DNA of 50,587 nucleotides from Alphaproteobacteria bacterium (GTDB taxonomy: Bacteria; Pseudomonadota; Alphaproteobacteria; RF32; CAG-239). This document shows, in pieces, positions 12,207 through 41,212 of this stretch (position 1 is the first letter of the stretch; every line of letters begins with the position of its first letter). Made by a program: the position numbers and the translations under genes. The stretch lies in the NCBI GenBank assembly GCA_017445475.1, contig JAFSUB010000011.1, positions 1 to 50,587 of the forward strand. Reading direction: 5' to 3'. The notes below the pieces were generated by a model. That model did no database searches, had not been told where the DNA came from, and saw nothing but the letters and a program-made list of their open reading frames with translations.

Positions 12207-14459
12207 ATGGCAAGAAAATCTAAAAAGAAAGAAACAAAGTTTCGAAAATTGTTCAGAATCTGTGCTGGCTTTTTTTTGATGGCGGCCAGCATTGTTTTTT
12301 ATCTGTCGTTTTTTTCGTATCATGCGTCCGATCCGAGCTTTAACCATGTGAGCGACGATGCAACACAAAATTTATTGGGTGGTTTCGGCGCAAACATTGC
12401 CGAGGCCGCATGGTGTTTTTACGGCATAGCACTTTGTTTTTTTGTTCCGGCGCTCTTCGTTTGGGGTTTTAAGTTGGTGCGTTACGGTGTGGTGCTGCTT
12501 TTTAAGTTTCGCCTGCTTGCTTTCATCATGGGCGTCAACGCTTTGGCACCGCTTTTAAATATTGTGCACACAGCAAAAATAAACGGCCAATATTTGGGCG
12601 GGAAAACGGGCGAATATTTTTTAAGGTTTTTGAACACACACTTCAGCTACGCGCCGCCTGTTTATCGAAATATGATTTTAATTTTCATTTTGGGGATTGT
12701 CAGCGTTTTAACATTTAACGCCGTGATGGGGCTCACGGCCAAAAGTTGGTGGAAATTTTTCAAAGCAGTTTTAAAAGGTGCAAAAAACATCACGGTTGCA
12801 CTGTTTGCACTGCTTTGGGCTGTCATCACACGCTTTAAGGGCGGCAAAAAAACAAAAGCCGGTCTTTTAAGAGCAAGAATAGAGCCGAAGCTCAAAGAAA
12901 AGCCCGTGCACCAAGAGCAAAAAGCAAGTCAAAAAACCTTGGCGCAAAAAGCAAAACTGCCCGCTTTTTCGGGACAATACCGATTCCCGAGTTCGGATTT
13001 GTTGTCGCGTCCGAAAGATAAAGGTTCGGTTGAGGTCAATCAAAAAGAATTGGATTTGACAGCGCAAAATTTGGAAAATGTCTTAAAAGAATTTGGTGTT
13101 TACGGCGAAATTGTTGCGATTCGCCCCGGTCCGGTTGTAACGCTTTTTGAATTTAAGCCTGTTGCCGGAACAAAAACGGCACGCGTGATTGGACTTGCCG
13201 ACGATATTGCGCGTTCAATGTGCGCTGTTTCCGCGCGTATTGCCGTTGTTGCCGGCACGGACGCCATCGGCATTGAAATTCCGAATGCAAAACGTGAAAC
13301 CGTTTGGTTTAAAGATTTAATTGAAGATGAGGCGTTTGCGCAAAGCAAAAACACCTTAAATGTGGTGTTGGGCAAAGACATCGGCGGGCAAAATGTTTAT
13401 GCCGATTTGGCCAAAATGCCGCACCTTCTTGTGGCGGGAACAACGGGCTCCGGCAAATCGGTTGGCATCAATTCGATGATTTTATCACTTTTGTTTAAGA
13501 TGACGCCCGAGGAATGTAAAATGATTATGATTGATCCGAAAATGCTTGAATTTTCAATGTATAACGACATTCCGCATTTGCTCACTCCCGTCATCACCGA
13601 TCCGGCAAAGGCGGTTGTCGGCTTGAAATGGGCTGTTTGCGAGATGGAAGAAAGATATCGCAAAATTTCCGATTTGCATGTGCGCAACATTTTCGGCTAT
13701 AACCAGAAGCTCAAAGAGCTGCAGCAATCGGGTGAAAAGCCTACAAAAACCATACAGGTCGGGTTTGATGCCGAAACAGGGCGCCCGATTTATGAGCATC
13801 AGGAAATTGACTTAAGCCCAATGCCGTATATTGTCATTGTTGTTGACGAGGTGGCGGATTTAATGATTGTGGCTAAAAAAGAAGTTGAAACGGCCATCCA
13901 GCGTTTGGCGCAAAAGGCCAGAGCCGCCGGTATTCACCTGATTATGGCCACCCAACGTCCGTCCGTTGATGTTATCACGGGCGTGATTAAGGCTAATTTT
14001 CCGACACGAATCAGTTTTCAGGTTACCTCCAAGTTTGACAGTATGACGATTTTGGGCGACAAAGGCGCCGAGCAGCTTCTCGGTATGGGCGATATGCTTT
14101 ATATGCCTTCCGGTTTGCGGCCGCTTCGCGTTCACGGCAGTTTTGTTAAAGACAGCGAAGTTGAAGCTGTGGCCGAATTTTTGAAAAGCCAAGGTGCGCC
14201 GAATTATGTTGCGGGTGTAACCGAAGGTGAGCTAACTTCAAAAGAAGGTTTGTCCTCTGATTTATCATCAGAGGGAGATGCTGATTTATACATGCAGGCC
14301 TTAAACATTGTTCGAAATGATAAAAAGGCTTCGACAAGCTATATTCAACGCAAGCTTCGAATCGGTTACAACCGTGCAGCGGCGCTGATTGATAAAATGG
14401 AAGAAGATGGAATTGTTTCGCCCGCAGACCATGTCGGCAGGCGCGAAGTTATCGGTTAG
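12207..14459 (+). CDS. ftsK: DNA translocase FtsK
   Basis: FtsK anchors at the septum, pumps chromosome termini apart and activates XerCD at dif. The 750-residue product has several N-terminal membrane segments (first near residues 20-40), a basic and Gln-rich linker of about 100 residues, then the motor. Walker A GTTGSGKS is at 411-418, Walker B IVVDE ends at 548, and a C-terminal winged-helix gamma domain that reads KOPS-type sites spans about 685-750 (SYIQRKLRIGYNRAA). The linker is short compared with E. coli FtsK, as in many alphaproteobacteria. It is co-transcribed with the flanking genes (13- and 9-base gaps). Confidence 0.96.
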   Translation: MARKSKKKETKFRKLFRICAGFFLMAASIVFYLSFFSYHASDPSFNHVSDDATQNLLGGFGANIAEAAWCFYGIALCFFVPALFVWGFKLVRYGVVLLFKFRLLAFIMGVNALAPLLNIVHTAKINGQYLGGKTGEYFLRFLNTHFSYAPPVYRNMILIFILGIVSVLTFNAVMGLTAKSWWKFFKAVLKGAKNITVALFALLWAVITRFKGGKKTKAGLLRARIEPKLKEKPVHQEQKASQKTLAQKAKLPAFSGQYRFPSSDLLSRPKDKGSVEVNQKELDLTAQNLENVLKEFGVYGEIVAIRPGPVVTLFEFKPVAGTKTARVIGLADDIARSMCAVSARIAVVAGTDAIGIEIPNAKRETVWFKDLIEDEAFAQSKNTLNVVLGKDIGGQNVYADLAKMPHLLVAGTTGSGKSVGINSMILSLLFKMTPEECKMIMIDPKMLEFSMYNDIPHLLTPVITDPAKAVVGLKWAVCEMEERYRKISDLHVRNIFGYNQKLKELQQSGEKPTKTIQVGFDAETGRPIYEHQEIDLSPMPYIVIVVDEVADLMIVAKKEVETAIQRLAQKARAAGIHLIMATQRPSVDVITGVIKANFPTRISFQVTSKFDSMTILGDKGAEQLLGMGDMLYMPSGLRPLRVHGSFVKDSEVEAVAEFLKSQGAPNYVAGVTEGELTSKEGLSSDLSSEGDADLYMQALNIVRNDKKASTSYIQRKLRIGYNRAAALIDKMEEDGIVSPADHVGRREVIG

Positions 14460-14468
14460 GAATTAAAG

Positions 14469-15710
14469 ATGTTGCTCTTAAAAAATGTTTTTTTGAACGG
14501 AAAAACACAGGATATTTTGATTAAGGATAATGCTTTTGCTAAAATAGCAAGCCATATCGAGCATAAAAATTGCAAAACGCTTGATTGCAAAGACAAAGCG
14601 ATTTTGCCGACTTTTTGCAACACGCACACGCACGCCTCAATGATGTTTTTGAGGGGTGTCGGCGAAGATTTGGAGCTTTTTGATTGGCTTGAAAACGAAA
14701 TATGGCCGAGAGAAGACAAATTGACGCCTGAGATGGTTTATCATCTGTCGCGTTTTGCCATTTTGGAAATGATAAAAACAGGAACGACAATGTTCTTGGA
14801 TATGTATTTTTTTGTGGATCAAACCATTAAGGCTGCCGAAGAAATGGGCATTCGAGCAGCCATCACTTATCTCGGAATGGATGTGTTTGATGAAAACGAA
14901 ACAAAACGTCGTCAGGGTTTGGCACAGACTTTTTTGAGTAATGACAGCACAGGCCCGCTGATTTATAAAGGACTGTCTTGCCATGCGGTTTACACAACTT
15001 CCGAAGCTTTAATTAAAAGCTTTAAGGAGTATACACGCAAAAACAAAACCTATTTGAGTATTCATATGAACGAAACGCAAAAAGAAGTTTCGGATTGCTT
15101 GGCAAAATATGGCAAACGTCCGATACAGCTTATTGATGATTGGGGCATTTTAGATGAAAACACCATTATTGCGCATGCGGTGCATTTAGATGATGATGAA
15201 ATAAGTCGCATTGTTCGGGCAAAGGCCGTTGTGGCACATAATCCAACCTCAAATTTGAAGCTCAATTCGGGGCAAATGCCGTTGCAAAAATATTTGGAAA
15301 GGGGCGTTCGTGTGGCGCTTGGAACCGACGGTGTTTCTTCAAACAATTCGCTTTCGATGATTTCCGAAATGAAAGTGGCGGCATTGTCGGCAAAGAGTGC
15401 GGCAAACAGCTCAACTGCGGCAAAGACCCCTGATGTGTTTAAAATTGCAACCGAAAACGGCTTTGAGGCTTTGGGTGTTAAAGCGGGCAAAATTGAAGAG
15501 GGGTATTTGGCAGACTTTATGCTTGTTGACTTAAACCATCATGCGCTTTTGCCGAATGTCAACCTTGTTTCGAATATGGTTTATTCGGCAGATTCTTCTG
15601 TTATCTGCGACGTTTTTTGCAACGGCAAGCCCTTGATGCTGGATGGGTATGTTGCTGGCGAAGAAGAGATTGTTGAAAACTTCAAAAAGGTGTGCAAAGA
15701 ATTATCTTGA
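14469..15710 (+). CDS. mtaD: Amidohydrolase, MtaD-type 5'-methylthioadenosine/S-adenosylhomocysteine deaminase
   Basis: The predicted reaction is deamination of MTA or SAH to the inosyl product, a step in methylthioadenosine or SAH turnover. The 413-residue product shows the metal site of the TIM-barrel amidohydrolases: HTH with His53 and His55, His199 and Glu202 in SIHMNE, His236/His239 in AHAVHL, and Asp287 in GTDG. The shape of the MFLRGVGEDLELFDWLEN region matches the MTA/SAH deaminase subgroup, but related chlorohydrolases and guanine deaminases cannot be ruled out by eye. It starts nine bases after ftsK, with AGGA overlapping the ftsK stop region. Confidence 0.82.
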   Translation: MLLLKNVFLNGKTQDILIKDNAFAKIASHIEHKNCKTLDCKDKAILPTFCNTHTHASMMFLRGVGEDLELFDWLENEIWPREDKLTPEMVYHLSRFAILEMIKTGTTMFLDMYFFVDQTIKAAEEMGIRAAITYLGMDVFDENETKRRQGLAQTFLSNDSTGPLIYKGLSCHAVYTTSEALIKSFKEYTRKNKTYLSIHMNETQKEVSDCLAKYGKRPIQLIDDWGILDENTIIAHAVHLDDDEISRIVRAKAVVAHNPTSNLKLNSGQMPLQKYLERGVRVALGTDGVSSNNSLSMISEMKVAALSAKSAANSSTAAKTPDVFKIATENGFEALGVKAGKIEEGYLADFMLVDLNHHALLPNVNLVSNMVYSADSSVICDVFCNGKPLMLDGYVAGEEEIVENFKKVCKELS

Positions 15711-35298: not shown

Positions 35299-35505
35299 GT
35301 GGTTCAGGTTACAGTCATCGGCAACGATGTCGCGCAATCTTTGAAAATTTTGAAAAAGAAAATGCAACGTGAAGGTATTTTCCGCGAGATGAAATTGCGC
35401 CGTTGTCATGAAAAGAACGCCGAGAAGAAGGCAAGGCGTAAAGCCGAGGCCATTCGTCGTGCGCGCAAGCAACTTCGCAAACGTTTAGACACCGAAGGTT
35501 TCTAG
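35299..35505 (+). CDS. rpsU: 30S ribosomal protein S21
   Basis: S21 binds near the anti-Shine-Dalgarno end of 16S rRNA and assists initiation. The 68-residue product starts [21 protein letters not shown] and has the usual highly basic helix ([19 protein letters not shown]). The start is GTG, with AGAGGTGAT upstream at 35286-35294. It is monocistronic with a clear terminator. Confidence 0.95.
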
Positions 35506-35524
35506 CAAAAAATTTATTTTCAGA

Positions 35525-35553
35525 GCGCCTGCCATATCAGCGGGCGTTTTTTT
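35525..35553 (+). terminator. Terminator after rpsU
   Basis: CGCCTGC / GCGGGCG (7 bp, one G-T pair) with a seven-base loop, followed by seven T. Confidence 0.85.
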
Positions 35554-35687
35554 ACTTTTTATTTATGCTTTTTTTGTATGTTACAGAAATGTGAACATTT
35601 TGCTTTTCAGCAAAGAAAAACTGGAAAGTTTTACGATTTTATGCTAGGCTAGAAACATATAGGTTTTTTGTTGATTAAGGTGTGAGA

Positions 35688-36455
35688 ATGTATTTATGGA
35701 TTGTCATCGCGACGTTTATGGTTGCACTGCTTTCGTATAACCTGTCGGTTCGTCCCGATGTGGATCGTGCATATATGGAAACAAAGGCGCAGACCGTTGT
35801 CGGCAAGTTCAAAATACAGCACAATGCTTTCAAAAGATATCTTAATTCGCAAAAAATTCCGGCAAATCCGGCCCTCGGTGATCCGCTGTATGTCAGCTAT
35901 AAGCCCGGGTTTGGGTATAATGCCGGACAAATTCTGGGCTCTGATGACACCGAGCCATACGCGGTGGAACAATATTTTCCGATGGGCTATTTGCCCGATG
36001 ATGAAACATATTCAAAAGTGTTTTGTTTTGAGCCGTCATATTCGGATTCGGATTATGTCGATTATGAAGTCAACTGCAACGATGCGGCGGTTATGGCCGA
36101 TGACAGATGTTGCAGCGTTGATTATGTGGAGGTATATGCCGTTTCTTGGGCGCCCATACCTTCACGGTGGCTCAACAGAAGCTCTACGCCAACCACCGAT
36201 ATGATGTCGGTGATGTCAAAGTCGGGCGAATACGGCAGATGTTTCGGATATGTTACAACAGCAGAAGATGTGCCGTATGCGGTTGTCAGCGGTGGCGTTA
36301 AACCAAATGAGCAAATTGCAAACAACGATTTGCCCTATCGCGTTGTTTATTCCGCCGTCTTAAACGATGAGGACTATCAGAGCACGTGTCAAGACACCCC
36401 TTGTTTTATTGCCATTCATCAAGTTTTCACAAAAGAGGAGAGTTCCGATGACTGA
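35688..36455 (+). CDS. Pilin-system minor protein with N-terminal membrane helix (PilM-like?)
   Basis: The 255-residue product starts MYLWIVIATFMVALLSYNL, a single N-terminal membrane helix, followed by a charged amphipathic helix (DRAYMETKAQTVVGKFKIQHNAFKRYL) and an acidic, Tyr- and Cys-rich domain (cysteines in KVFCFEP, EVNCNDA, DRCCSVD, GRCFGY, STCQDTPC). This plan resembles minor pilin-associated proteins such as PilM of the R64 thin pilus, which is a suggestion only; no prepilin-peptidase site is visible. ATG 35688 is preferred over GTG 35682, which lies in the AAGGTGAG ribosome-binding site. Its stop overlaps the start of the giant prepilin-like gene by eight bases, so the two products are made together. 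Confidence 0.65.
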   Translation: MYLWIVIATFMVALLSYNLSVRPDVDRAYMETKAQTVVGKFKIQHNAFKRYLNSQKIPANPALGDPLYVSYKPGFGYNAGQILGSDDTEPYAVEQYFPMGYLPDDETYSKVFCFEPSYSDSDYVDYEVNCNDAAVMADDRCCSVDYVEVYAVSWAPIPSRWLNRSSTPTTDMMSVMSKSGEYGRCFGYVTTAEDVPYAVVSGGVKPNEQIANNDLPYRVVYSAVLNDEDYQSTCQDTPCFIAIHQVFTKEESSDD

Positions 36456-39400
36456 TATTAAGCGATTTAAAAAAGTGAGCCAGGCCGGCTCAATGATGAT
36501 TGAGGCCATGGCGATGTTAATGCTCATTGCGATGGTTACGCCGACGCTCTATAAAAAATCTGCCGAGCGAACGCTTGAGTTGCAGGACATCAACACGGCA
36601 ACACACGTCAGAACTCTGATTAAGGCGGTTGACAACTACACCGCGGCCAATTACACACGGCTTCTTCAAGAGGTTCCCGAAGGTGAATCCGCTGTCGTAA
36701 CGATTGACGATTTGTCGGACTTTTTGCCGTATGGATACCGGTTTGATGTCATTAAAAATTTTGAAATGCCGATTGCAACAATCAAACGCCAGCCCGACAG
36801 CGATTCGATAACGTCATTTGTCTTTTTCCCTCAAATCGGTGAAATTAACGAAATGCGCGCCTCAAGAATTGCCTCTATGATTGGTTCAAACGGCGGTTAT
36901 ATTGATAGCGGGGGTGCGGCCAAAGGTGTGGGTGGCGTGTGGTCGCTGACAAGCGGTGAGGTTGATGACCAGCTGGCAAGTTGCGATGCCGATGAAAGGC
37001 ACTGTGTGGTTTCAAAGGGCTCCATTGTTGCCGCTTCGTCGGAAAGCATTAATGCGGTTAACAGCACAACCTTTGAAAACTCTAAATATTTGCAACGCAC
37101 GCCGGCGGACGGCGAAGAATGGCGCAACACAATGCTGACAAACTTATATATGGGCGGTTCAGCCGAAGAATTGGGCAGTTCTCAGGATGTGCCCTACAGC
37201 AAAATTTTAGGCGTTGATCAAATGATAATCGGCGGCACGGCAACCGAAGCAGGTAATGAGGCAGATGCCAGTTTGGTTGTGAAAGCACGCGGTTCAATGG
37301 AAGGCGCAGCATTTCTTGAAGGGAGTTTGCGTGCTTTGAGCGGTGCTTTGAGCGTTACCGGAACGGAAGATAATCCGGAGCTTGATTTTGCAGACAGTTT
37401 ATTGCTTGCAAACAATGACGAGTTTTCGGTAAATGTCAACAAAACTGCCGCCACCCCTGATTTTACTCTCACAAAAGAGGAAGGCGCGGAAAGAGCGGGT
37501 GCAACATTTAATGTTGACACAAAAGTAACCGCAGACAACACTTTTACGGCGGAAGGCAACACATATCTTGCAAGTGCTCAAGGTAAAAAGCTTGAAGTCG
37601 GACCGGAAGGAAACATTATGACAGCCGAAAGCGGCAAGGTTGATATTTTAGGCAGCGAGGTTTTAATCACGAAAACAGAAAACAACGGCACGGTAGAATC
37701 TAAAGTTGATATTGATGCCGTTACAACCGTCAAGGGAGCACACACCAGTGCGCCGATATATCCCAATCTAAACCCGAACTTCACGGTTCAAGGCAATGCG
37801 TATGTTGCCAACATTTTGGAGGCGGGCGAAATTGACGCGCACAAATTTGACACGCTGGAACTTCATGCCGGCGGCAGAGGTTGGGATGCGGAAAACATTG
37901 ACAAGCGCTGGCTTCATGTAACGGCAGACGGCATCAAAGCGCAAGATTTGGGCGACCATGAGCGTATGAGCATAGATGCCGATGAAACCGTTTTATACGG
38001 TCCGAACGCCACAGAAGACAAAGGTGCGATGTTTATTGACGACGCAGATGCCGGCTTATACAGCACGGAGGCCGGAAAAGTTGTTGTGCAACGAGGTGCC
38101 ATCACGGCAACCGGAACCCCGGGCACAGCTTCAAACAATCTTGTCGATGTTAGAGCAACCAGAATGCAGATTGCAGGCAGTGATGACAACAATGTGGCTT
38201 TTGAAATTATTGCAGGTGAAGGTGAGGGTGCTGAGCGCACACAGTCTTCAGTCGGTGCCGATGTTGACCAATTTCTTGTTCAAAAAGGCGACAATATGAA
38301 GCTCTTAAACATTGTTTCAACAGAAAACAGCACGGCACTTGGTGGTGATTCAACGGTTGAAATTGATCCGACGACGTTTAATGTATATGCCAGAACAACA
38401 ACGGGCAATGATATCAATAATCAAATTTTAAAGGTTGACGCATCAAGCGGTCTTGCCAATACAAGCGGAAGTCAGACGAGCGGCGCAAGCGTTTATATTC
38501 GCCGCGGTGCGATTGAACTTGAGGGTTCGCCTTCAAGCAACGGCAATTACGCGGCTGACGAAGGCGTGGGTTATATCGAAGCCTCACGTTTTGTGGCAAA
38601 CAACGAAGCAGACAGCACGGGCACGCTGGTTCGTCCTGTTTATGCAGGCGACTATGCTTCAGGCGGCTATGACACAGGGGTTATGCCCGACCGCTATATG
38701 GTCAATCCGGCATACACCTCGGTGATGCACGACATCAAGCTGACAACACGCGGCGGCGCGCGTTTGAGCGATATTTTGCCTGATTTTATCAATAAAGGCA
38801 TCTATATTGTCAACAACACATATAGCGATGGCGTTGATTTTAACAACTTAAACGTTTCAGTGAGCGGCGGAAGCGTTGTTTCAAGCGGAGACAGCTCTGA
38901 AATCAACGAAGCGCAAACATTCGGCAACAACCGATGGGCATCGCCTTATATGGGGATGATTCCGGCGCCGCAATGTCCTCCGGGGCACGCACGCGTGATT
39001 ACCATCACGCCGGCAAGCTTCCAAATGTCGCAAGCCGGTGATATGGTTCTGGGCTCAGATGGTCGCTATTATGTTAAAGAATTTGCGCGCTTGAACGATT
39101 TGGCAGGTGTTAGCAATTTGGTCGCGGATACGGCCATCCCGGGTGCCTCTTATCAATCAAGAAACATTATAGGTTCCGGAACGCTTTATTATCTTGGCTA
39201 TACGAATCAGCCAACCGCCACAAAAAGCGGTTCGCCTTACGCACCGAAACCGCTTTATTTCCAACAGAGCACATGGCTTAAGAGCAAGGTAATTGCTTAT
39301 GGCTCCGGTGGTCGCTGCGACGGCGACCAAACCGGTAGCGGTTGCGGAAGCAATTTCTTGGGTTGGGCCGCGATTATGGGCTTTATCTATCCATACGCGC

Positions 39401-39696
39401 TTTATAGTCCCATCATTACGGAACTCGGTGCTTCAAGCAATGAAGATGATTTGGCAAACAACACGGTTTATTGGAATGTTTTTCCTGTTCAGGCGCGTTC
39501 GCTTGAGGCGTATGCAACCGTATATTGCTACTTTGACCGCACAAACATCTTCGGTTCGGGAATGGATTCGAAATATGTTGACCAATATGATCAAATCAAC
39601 AATTTCAGAAACATATACAACAAGTCAAACAGCTCAAATGCCGACTACATTGAGCGCTTGAATGATCCGCAGCTTAAATACAGCGATCCATGGTAA
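36448..39696 (+). CDS. Giant prepilin-like surface protein (1082 residues)
   Basis: The N-terminus carries a type IV prepilin (class III) leader: a basic 14-residue leader ending in Gly14, then SMMIE with Glu19 at mature position +5, and a hydrophobic helix (MAMLMLIAMVTPTLY). The helix continues into an amphipathic stretch as in pilins. Beyond residue about 250 the protein becomes Gly/Ser/Thr/Asp-rich and beta-like, with recurrent modules. Compare VVVQRGAITATGTPG (545) with VYIRRGAIELEGSPS (682), and a looser copy near 292. The C-terminal 200 residues hold cysteines (QCPPGHARV, GGRCDGD, GSGCGSN, TVYCYFD) and a likely folded tip. This resembles PilV-type tip adhesins, but at least twice their length. 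GAGGAG at 36435-36440 fixes ATG 36448. Confidence 0.8.
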   Translation: MTDIKRFKKVSQAGSMMIEAMAMLMLIAMVTPTLYKKSAERTLELQDINTATHVRTLIKAVDNYTAANYTRLLQEVPEGESAVVTIDDLSDFLPYGYRFDVIKNFEMPIATIKRQPDSDSITSFVFFPQIGEINEMRASRIASMIGSNGGYIDSGGAAKGVGGVWSLTSGEVDDQLASCDADERHCVVSKGSIVAASSESINAVNSTTFENSKYLQRTPADGEEWRNTMLTNLYMGGSAEELGSSQDVPYSKILGVDQMIIGGTATEAGNEADASLVVKARGSMEGAAFLEGSLRALSGALSVTGTEDNPELDFADSLLLANNDEFSVNVNKTAATPDFTLTKEEGAERAGATFNVDTKVTADNTFTAEGNTYLASAQGKKLEVGPEGNIMTAESGKVDILGSEVLITKTENNGTVESKVDIDAVTTVKGAHTSAPIYPNLNPNFTVQGNAYVANILEAGEIDAHKFDTLELHAGGRGWDAENIDKRWLHVTADGIKAQDLGDHERMSIDADETVLYGPNATEDKGAMFIDDADAGLYSTEAGKVVVQRGAITATGTPGTASNNLVDVRATRMQIAGSDDNNVAFEIIAGEGEGAERTQSSVGADVDQFLVQKGDNMKLLNIVSTENSTALGGDSTVEIDPTTFNVYARTTTGNDINNQILKVDASSGLANTSGSQTSGASVYIRRGAIELEGSPSSNGNYAADEGVGYIEASRFVANNEADSTGTLVRPVYAGDYASGGYDTGVMPDRYMVNPAYTSVMHDIKLTTRGGARLSDILPDFINKGIYIVNNTYSDGVDFNNLNVSVSGGSVVSSGDSSEINEAQTFGNNRWASPYMGMIPAPQCPPGHARVITITPASFQMSQAGDMVLGSDGRYYVKEFARLNDLAGVSNLVADTAIPGASYQSRNIIGSGTLYYLGYTNQPTATKSGSPYAPKPLYFQQSTWLKSKVIAYGSGGRCDGDQTGSGCGSNFLGWAAIMGFIYPYALYSPIITELGASSNEDDLANNTVYWNVFPVQARSLEAYATVYCYFDRTNIFGSGMDSKYVDQYDQINNFRNIYNKSNSSNADYIERLNDPQLKYSDPW

Positions 39697-39708
39697 ACGT
39701 GGCAAAGT

Positions 39709-39749
39709 CAAAAAAGATACCTCTCGGTTTAAGAGAGGTATCTTTTTTT
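39709..39749. terminator. Bidirectional terminator between the pilin operon and rplI
   Basis: GATACCTCTC / GAGAGGTATC, a perfect 10-bp stem extended by A-T pairs, with A and T runs on both sides. Confidence 0.92.
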
Positions 39750-39768
39750 GTTTGTAATCAAACCGGTT

Positions 39769-40254
39769 TTATTCTGCCAAAAAGGCTTTTTCCTGTTTTG
39801 CAGCTTCATCTGAAGTGCGCGCAACGTTGATTAAAATGGTTTGCGTAACTTCAGGATGAAGATTTAAACGAACTTTGTAAACGCCCAAATCTTTAATCGG
39901 TTTTTCCAAATAAACCAAGCGGCGTTCAACATCAAATCCGGCTTCTTTTATTGCAACCGCAATATCGCGAATTGTAACCGAACCGTAAAGCTGGCCTGTT
40001 TCGGCAGCCTGACGGATAAGCACAGCCTTAAAGCCTTGCAATGCGTCGGCTTTTGCCGTTGCGGCATCAAGCAAAGCTTTGTTATGAGCTTCTAATTCGG
40101 CTTTTTGTTTTTCAAAAAAAGCAATATTGGCTTCTGTTGCGCGCAAAGCTTTATTTTGCGGCAAAAGGTAGTTACGGGCATAACCGTTTTTCACCGTTAC
40201 TTTTTCGCCCATTTTCCCTAATTTTTCAATATGTTCGAGAAGAATAACTTCCAT
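39769..40254 (-). CDS. rplI: 50S ribosomal protein L9
   Basis: L9 extends from the L1 side of the 50S subunit and affects frame maintenance. The 161-residue product begins MEVILLEHIEKLGKMGEKVTVKNGYARNYLLPQNKA, the full family signature, followed by the long connecting helix and the C-terminal domain. GGAGG lies just upstream. It is third gene of rpsF-rpsR-rplI. Confidence 0.96.
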   Translation of the reverse strand: MEVILLEHIEKLGKMGEKVTVKNGYARNYLLPQNKALRATEANIAFFEKQKAELEAHNKALLDAATAKADALQGFKAVLIRQAAETGQLYGSVTIRDIAVAIKEAGFDVERRLVYLEKPIKDLGVYKVRLNLHPEVTQTILINVARTSDEAAKQEKAFLAE

Positions 40255-40266
40255 TTTGGCCTCCCA

Positions 40267-40491
40267 CTAATTTGCAACATACGGCAACAAGCCGATATAA
40301 CGGGCGCGTTTGATGGCGCGCGCAAGTTCTCTTTGCTTTTTAGCCGAAACAGAGGTGATACGCGAAGGAATAATTTTGCCTTTTTCGGAAATAAAACGCG
40401 ACAAGAGTTTAACATCCTTATAGTCGATTCTCAATGCATTTTCGCCTGAAAACGGACAAGATTTTCTTTTAAAGAAAGATTGTTTTGTCAT
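40267..40491 (-). CDS. rpsR: 30S ribosomal protein S18
   Basis: S18 pairs with S6 on the 30S platform. The 74-residue product has [29 protein letters not shown] and [19 protein letters not shown]. Two adjacent ATGs exist; the one at 40491 has the better distance from GGGAG, while 40494 overlaps the rpsF stop by one base. The pair is translationally coupled to rpsF. Confidence 0.96.
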
Positions 40492-40493
40492 CA

Positions 40494-40850
40494 TTATTCT
40501 CCCATTGCCTGTGTTTCTTGCGTAACAGCTTCAATGTCTTCATCGGAAGTCATTTCGCTGTTAAACTCATCAACCTTAACTGTCATATAGCGAATGATAT
40601 CTTCGTTAAGGCGCACCAAGCGCTCATATTCAAAAATTGCCTGAGCCGGCGCAACAATATTGAGCAAAACGTAATAACCTTTGCGGTTCTTTTTAATGCG
40701 ATAAGCAAGGTTTTTCAAACCCCAATTATCAACTTTAACGACTTCGCCGCCTTGGTTTTTGATAATATCGCTTAAATTTGAGACGATGTCATTAACCTGC
40801 GAGGCGCCTAAGTCCTGACGTGCGATGAGCACGCTTTCGTAATTAGACAT
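40494..40850 (-). CDS. rpsF: 30S ribosomal protein S6
   Basis: S6 binds the central domain of 16S rRNA together with S18. The 118-residue product has [21 protein letters not shown] at the start, [19 protein letters not shown] in the middle, and the usual acidic C-terminal tail. AAGGAG lies upstream of the ATG. It leads the operon and is divergent from rplJ across 395 bases that contain the L10 leader. Confidence 0.96.
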
Positions 40851-40994
40851 ATATAAATCTCCTTATGGATTCTCAACAAATGAACGGCAAGCCGTTCGGT
40901 TTCATGTATAGCCGAAAGAAAAATCTTTCAGCAAGGGACGAAAGGCACTATACATAAAAATAAAAACTTTGCAAGCGTTTTTTTAAAAAACATC

Positions 40995-41021
40995 TTGACT
41001 TAAGTTTTTTTTTCGTATATC
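40995..41021 (+). promoter_or_regulatory. Promoter of rplJ-rplL
   Basis: TTGACT (40995-41000) with TATATC at 41016-41021, or TATCAG two bases on, giving a leader of over 200 nt before rplJ. Confidence 0.6.
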
Positions 41022-41032
41022 AGATGTTCTCA

Positions 41033-41212
41033 AGTGAGGGCTTTCAAGCGCTCACTCTGTCCAAGACTGTAGGCGGGCTTAATGTTTGTTAAATCCTTAA
41101 TTTCCTACACAGACGGAGCTTTAAAAAGGTTTATTTTATAATCGTTTTTTTCTCCCATAATCGGACAGATTCGGTCGTTGCTTTGCAAGGCTTTGCGCCT
41201 TTTTGTAAAGCA
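41033..41212 (+). promoter_or_regulatory. L10-type ribosomal protein leader
   Basis: The leader has AGTGAG/CTCACT (41033-41056), then the hallmark CCAAGACTGTAGG ... CCTACACAGACGG (41061-41116), the kink-turn-like site bound by the L10-(L12)4 complex in other bacteria. Binding represses translation of rplJL. Farther on, TGCTTTGCAA (41179) pairs with TTGTAAAGCA (41203-41212). A short AAGGC/GCCTT hairpin followed by three T sits inside the same segment, so the two structures could exclude each other. Confidence 0.78.

Follow-up and report, generated by a model that had tools for sequence, protein, structure and literature searches.

The class III leader is the signal processed by prepilin peptidases. 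In the toxin-coregulated pilus (TCP) of Vibrio cholerae, which works without a retraction ATPase, TcpB starts both assembly and retraction (PMC5207764). On PAPI-1, pilM2 is listed after pilV2 (PMC5297154), and pilM adjoins pilV on several plasmids as well. The most extreme modular pilin cited has 860 residues (PMC8179133). Two overlapping genes related to these systems lie in a stretch of 50,587 nucleotides from an alphaproteobacterium of the family CAG-239 (contig JAFSUB010000011.1 of assembly GCA_017445475.1; the whole stretch is the window below). The product of the larger gene, P0002 (36448 to 39696, + strand, 1082 amino acids), is read here as a giant PilV/TcpB-type minor pilin, with the product of the smaller, P0001 (35688 to 36455, + strand, 255 amino acids), as its probable loading partner, a reading to which we assign a probability of about 0.8. 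The computational analysis supports a class III leader, homology to PilV, a pilus gene set in the same genome, a conserved gene pair, and a conserved tip combined with a variable stalk.

The P0002 N terminus consists of MTDIKRFKKVSQAG followed by SMMIEAMAML, placing Gly14 at −1 and a glutamate at +5 (E19), with a hydrophobic helix next. The leader thus corresponds to residues 1 to 14, ending at Gly14 (36448 to 36489, + strand). The initial annotation had proposed a 1082-residue prepilin with Gly14, Glu at +5, and a pilin helix; the open reading frame (ORF) was verified, and G14, E19, and much of the pilin helix proved invariant in 25 aligned homologues. Its second structural claim, that the P0002 start overlaps the stop of a 255-residue, cysteine-rich protein with an N-terminal helix, was also borne out: P0001 contains 7 cysteines, its stop codon occupies 36453 to 36455, and the P0002 ATG is at 36448, giving an 8-nucleotide overlap (36448 to 36455, + strand) that in relatives is likewise an overlap or a short spacing.

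Residues 15 to 238 (36490 to 37161, + strand) form a pilin region of the PilV/Shufflon_N type that ends at an NTM.T.LYMGG motif, as judged by profile alignment, by PF04917 in an orthologue, and by structure matches. When the N-terminal profile of the P0002 family was aligned by hhalign to nine plasmid PilV proteins, the match covered residues 17 to 238 with a probability of 99.6 and an E value of 2e-24. Removing the hydrophobic helix barely altered this value (1.5e-23), so the PilV match is no artefact of the helix. A tblastn search of P0002 against 72,556 plasmid records matched 101 of them, the best at an E value of 4e-4 over residues 39 to 284, and most of the plasmid matches listed are annotated as pilV of type IVb conjugative pili. 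In hidden Markov model searches against pilin and shufflon families, two homologues exceeded the 27.5-bit cut-off of PF04917 (Shufflon_N): L078, an orthologue, with 41.7 bits, and L075, a more distant relative, with 61.5 bits. The modeled pilin region matched the structures of PilM (Z 7.7), TcpB (Z 6.7), and CofB (Z 5.1).

Beyond the pilin region, conservation is distributed unevenly. The stalk (approximately residues 239 to 680; 37162 to 38487, + strand; boundaries approximate) varies in sequence and length and is the least conserved part of P0002, and the pilin region (to about residue 238) and the tip (about 840 to 1082) are highly conserved. The repetitive beta-like stalk and cysteine-containing tip of the initial annotation held in part: the tip carries the cysteines, and a low-confidence model gives a beta-rich stalk, though not one assembled from exact repeats. 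Three homologues show a weak bactofilin match at this position. Between stalk and tip, about 36 residues comprising NPAYTSVMHDIKLTTRGGARLSDILPDFINKGIY and its flank (approximately 751 to 786; 38698 to 38805, + strand) are nearly invariant, and the region surrounding them recurs in other families. The tip domain (approximately residues 840 to 1082; 38965 to 39693, + strand) contains Cys843 and Cys1027, the only invariant cysteines, and the final residue is almost always Trp, mostly within DPW. Against the C-terminal half of TcpB, residues 773 to 1029 give a weak match (Z 5.1 over 106 residues, root mean square deviation 4.1), again in a low-confidence model.

The search for pilus machinery went through the window's genome (1.33 Mb in 27 contigs, 99.6% complete) one protein family at a time. 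On contig 12, a PilN secretin (TIGR02520, 268 bits, slightly below the cut-off of 288) is encoded in a single cluster with PilO (PF06864), a PilP-like protein, the PilQ ATPase, PilR, and a PilS/bundlin-like protein. A PilL/TcpQ-like gene lies just upstream of this cluster, and a similar gene occupies the same position in the cluster of another genome. The prepilin peptidase gene is on contig 9, and three pilins with canonical leaders of the GRSMIEML type are encoded elsewhere, the one examined being bundlin/PilS-like. In all, one secretin and one prepilin peptidase were found; together with PilL-N-O-P-Q-R and the pilins, they make up a single type IVb pilus set. No PilT-type retraction ATPase reached its family cut-off. 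The prepilin peptidase and the pilus genes (ATPase, secretin, and pilins of the bundlin/PilS type) are all present, so the prepilin assignment does not fall for want of them. As a separate observation, the PilS/bundlin-like protein 3' of PilR (L059:11381-11941, − strand) has no canonical class III leader (MTLWVVLAVVFG) and resembles the N terminus of P0001.

P0001 (35688 to 36455, + strand) is itself leaderless, with an N-terminal membrane helix (residues 2 to 17), a second helix (23 to 54), and a beta domain. Its model is of high confidence (pLDDT, the predicted local distance difference test score, of 90.6), and the top structure match is PilM (3eoi, Z 6.5, 121/123 residues aligned), with TcpB and the TCP pilin next in rank. 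Since PilM is also the top match of the P0002 pilin region, this result indicates a pilin-like fold, not PilM specifically. The P0001 profile shows weak similarity to the PilV pilin region (probability 61 to 68%); searches of Pfam, NCBIfam, and PDB sequences returned nothing, and a scan for related loci with P0001 alone found no relative. Position beside the giant pilV favours the PilM reading. P0001 is termed PilM-like in fold and position, and not a PilM, because the sequence profiles show no link to PilM. Judged from its model, it is more plausibly a leaderless protein resembling type IVb pilins than an unrelated membrane protein.

Homologues of P0002 were present in 31/33 genomes of the same family, both genomes without a match being only 59% complete, and homologues of P0001 in 29/33. 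A P0001-type gene adjoined the giant pilV at 65 of 74 further loci. Genomic neighborhoods vary, and the pair stays joined. This kept adjacency, the invariance of key residues in homologues, and the spread over family genomes argue that the leader and the features of the pair are not chance. Complete giant homologues (73 loci) range from 911 to 1454 amino acids with a median of 1054, aside from one 529-residue outlier. A scan of species genomes with alignment A1 retrieved 166 relatives, and almost every one of those listed is a gut or rumen assembly labeled Alphaproteobacteria or proteobacterium, including Azospirillum sp. CAG:239. A class-wide draw matched P0002 in 24/289 genomes, mostly small ones from about a dozen further families, with many matches spanning the PilV-like part only. 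P0001-type neighbors also occur in families f2, f40, and f74; in f74 the two genes stand in the opposite order. The pair is adjacent in at least four alphaproteobacterial families. No description of the P0002 family was found in the open-access literature, and its size, its pairing, and its spread across many uncultured gut bacteria seem to be unreported.

By analogy with the PilV/TcpB family, cleavage, location at the tip, trimer formation, and initiation of assembly can be proposed for P0002. The protein would enter the inner membrane, be cleaved behind Gly14 by the prepilin peptidase of this genome, take its place at the tip of the single type IVb pilus (probably as a filament-starting trimer), and be pushed out through the PilN-type secretin. 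The pilin region would anchor the protein in the filament, and the stalk would distance the two-cysteine tip domain from the pilus. We infer an adhesin role at the pilus tip. Candidate targets for the tip are an adjoining cell, some surface, and a secreted protein partner. P0001, a predicted leaderless pilin-like inner-membrane protein in the PilM position, probably helps P0002 into the assembly machine, a role as a loading factor that is likewise uncertain.

Several results weigh against this reading. P0002 itself has no match in Pfam, NCBIfam, or PDB sequence searches and falls below the PF04917 threshold. Its full-length monomer model is poor (pLDDT 53.8; pTM, the predicted template modeling score, 0.30) and reliable in the pilin region only, so that the folds of stalk and tip are not established. 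The structural Z values (5 to 7.7) are suggestive only, since scores of this size can come from chance arrangements, and with Foldseek alone neither the P0001 nor the P0002 model had a significant match. Profiles of P0001 aligned to PilM profiles with an hhalign probability of at most 3%, also with 71 members, leaving P0001 unsupported as a sequence relative of PilM. Finally, the pair lies outside the main pil cluster, and none of the neighboring ORFs reads as a pilus gene.

A third protein family, of about 245 amino acids and with a signal-peptide-like start (examples are L188:5125-5820, − strand, and L118:9185-9922), bears on what the tip of P0002 does. Its gene lies 3' of the giant pilV on the same strand at 26/78 loci, in 25 of these within 43 to 272 bp, and the third protein was found in 31/33 genomes of the window's family and in the one tested genome of the next family, compared with 0/23 other genomes searched. 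Most members conserve the mature N terminus GVQSFQQ..DAWRR and the C terminus GWNNL. The arrangement recalls TcpF with TcpB and CofJ with CofB (PMC9565799). P0002 may be mainly a docking platform at the tip for this protein, in the way that TcpF docks on TcpB and CofJ on CofB, and not itself an adhesin. Besides the co-occurrence, the frequent position directly downstream, and the conserved start of the mature protein, this possibility draws on the weak match of the P0002 tip to the C-terminal half of TcpB, near the TcpF binding site (PMC9565799), and on the missing PilT-type ATPase at cut-off, as in TCP. It is held tentatively: in the window's own genome the third gene is on contig 14 (17136 to 17711) and its product lacks the conserved N-terminal motif, the family has no Pfam and no significant PDB relative, and its extracellular location is only predicted. 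A broader and somewhat more speculative proposal would join three proteins in the tip of one chromosomal type IVb pilus: the giant PilV, the leaderless pilin-like protein beside it, and a secreted protein that docks on the tip or is exported by it. Such a pilus would be common among uncultured gut Alphaproteobacteria with small genomes and would serve protein delivery and attachment, from cell to cell or to a host, and not conjugation.

The nearest characterized relatives of P0002 are the PilV proteins of conjugative plasmids and PAPI-1, and a conjugation-pilus adhesin on a mobile element, like R64 PilV, would explain this kinship. Yet the pair sits amid apparent core genes, its presence is family-wide with divergent sequence, and neither an inverted-repeat pattern in 35500 to 41200 nor a recombinase-sized ORF beside the pair was seen (neighbors read without a profile scan); P0002 is neither a shufflon nor, on this evidence, a conjugation adhesin, and we consider a conjugative role improbable. 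Still harder to sustain is a phage-tail-like or trimeric-autotransporter fibre resembling pilins by chance at its N terminus. Such a fibre could account for the beta-rich stalk and for a phage membrane-piercing protein among the weak structural matches, but PilV homology reaches about 200 residues past the signal and helix, the partner is fixed and pilin-like, and P0002 matched none of 50,697 phage records. For P0001, its 7 cysteines and the absence of a significant PilM sequence match would also suit an unrelated chaperone that attends the long stalk in the periplasm; the high-confidence model matching PilM, TcpB, and the TCP pilin, and an N-terminal helix architecture of the type IVb pilin type, make this doubtful. 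The reading we retain is that P0002 is a giant minor pilin of the PilV/TcpB type and P0001 its pilin-like partner.

In the window, the ORFs neighboring the pair read as core genes encoding glycolytic enzymes and ribosomal proteins, with an rpsU-like gene upstream and ribosomal protein genes downstream, as judged by our reading of the translations without a profile scan. Terminator-like hairpins lie between the rpsU-like gene and the pair (35522 to 35550, + strand) and immediately 3' of P0002 (39710 to 39748, + strand; a perfect 16-bp stem, a 7-nucleotide loop, and a T run). These hairpins suggest that P0001 and P0002 form a two-gene unit, although promoter and terminator matches, taken together, are no more numerous than chance would give.

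One genome of the same class (G054, family f23, 1.4 Mb) encodes at least 13 paralogous prepilins with a P0002-like N-terminal region and GSITVE-type leaders (examples are L077:3629-5842 and 13175-15235), possibly a multigene set of alternative tips. Two PilV-like genes adjoin each other at L204:7570-10399 in a genome of family f158, and a 1446-amino-acid ORF (L062:12812-17152) lies immediately 3' of a giant pilV homologue. In G031, two partial giant pilV genes (L072 and L073) each end at a contig edge, suggesting two similar copies. The locus L125 (JAISVX010000005.1) is alphaproteobacterial in character in an assembly labeled as a Lactobacillaceae bacterium, which is likely mislabeled.

Compared with described systems, P0002 is closest to PilV of IncI-type plasmids and PilV2 of PAPI-1, sharing a class III leader, a homologous pilin region of about 220 residues, a C-terminal tip, common GGYI, W, and NTM.T.L.MGG motifs, and a gene position beside pilM (here the PilM-like P0001). 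Plasmid PilV proteins span 398 to 478 amino acids in the sample of nine, compared with 911 to 1454 for the giant homologues; they are element-borne with shufflon tips switched by a recombinase, whereas P0002 has a core-gene context, no shufflon, a conserved tip, and a variable stalk. The suggestion in the initial annotation of a tip adhesin or undescribed fibre is therefore best recast: the tip-adhesin architecture with a coupled membrane partner stands, and the protein belongs to the known PilV (PF04917) family with an enlarged stalk and tip. The trimeric TcpB of V. cholerae and CofB of enterotoxigenic Escherichia coli are, like P0002, large single minor pilins. Their pilin domain, C-terminal beta-repeat region, and H-type lectin-like tip domain may have counterparts in P0002; they match P0002 weakly in structure at both its ends, and a PilT-like ATPase was not found here either. 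Their matched chains have about 390 to 480 residues, and no sequence-level match to P0002 was found. A co-occurring, secreted-looking protein makes TcpF/CofJ-like pilus-dependent secretion testable outside pathogens. PilM (3eoi; R64/PAPI-1 type) resembles P0001 in being leaderless, with one N-terminal membrane helix, a pilV neighbor, and a probably similar, pilin-like fold in the model, but has about 140 amino acids compared with 255 and no significant sequence-profile similarity. Modular pilins such as Streptococcus sanguinis PilB (PMC8179133) also use a small pilin module to present a large one, and unlike P0002 are defined by known extra domains. The giant PilV is a conserved chromosomal trait throughout this family of gut Alphaproteobacteria, which is known almost exclusively through metagenomes; its conserved tip and hyperconserved segment are concrete targets for finding what these bacteria attach to, and the PilV/TcpB tip class widens from about 400 to 500 residues to more than 1400.

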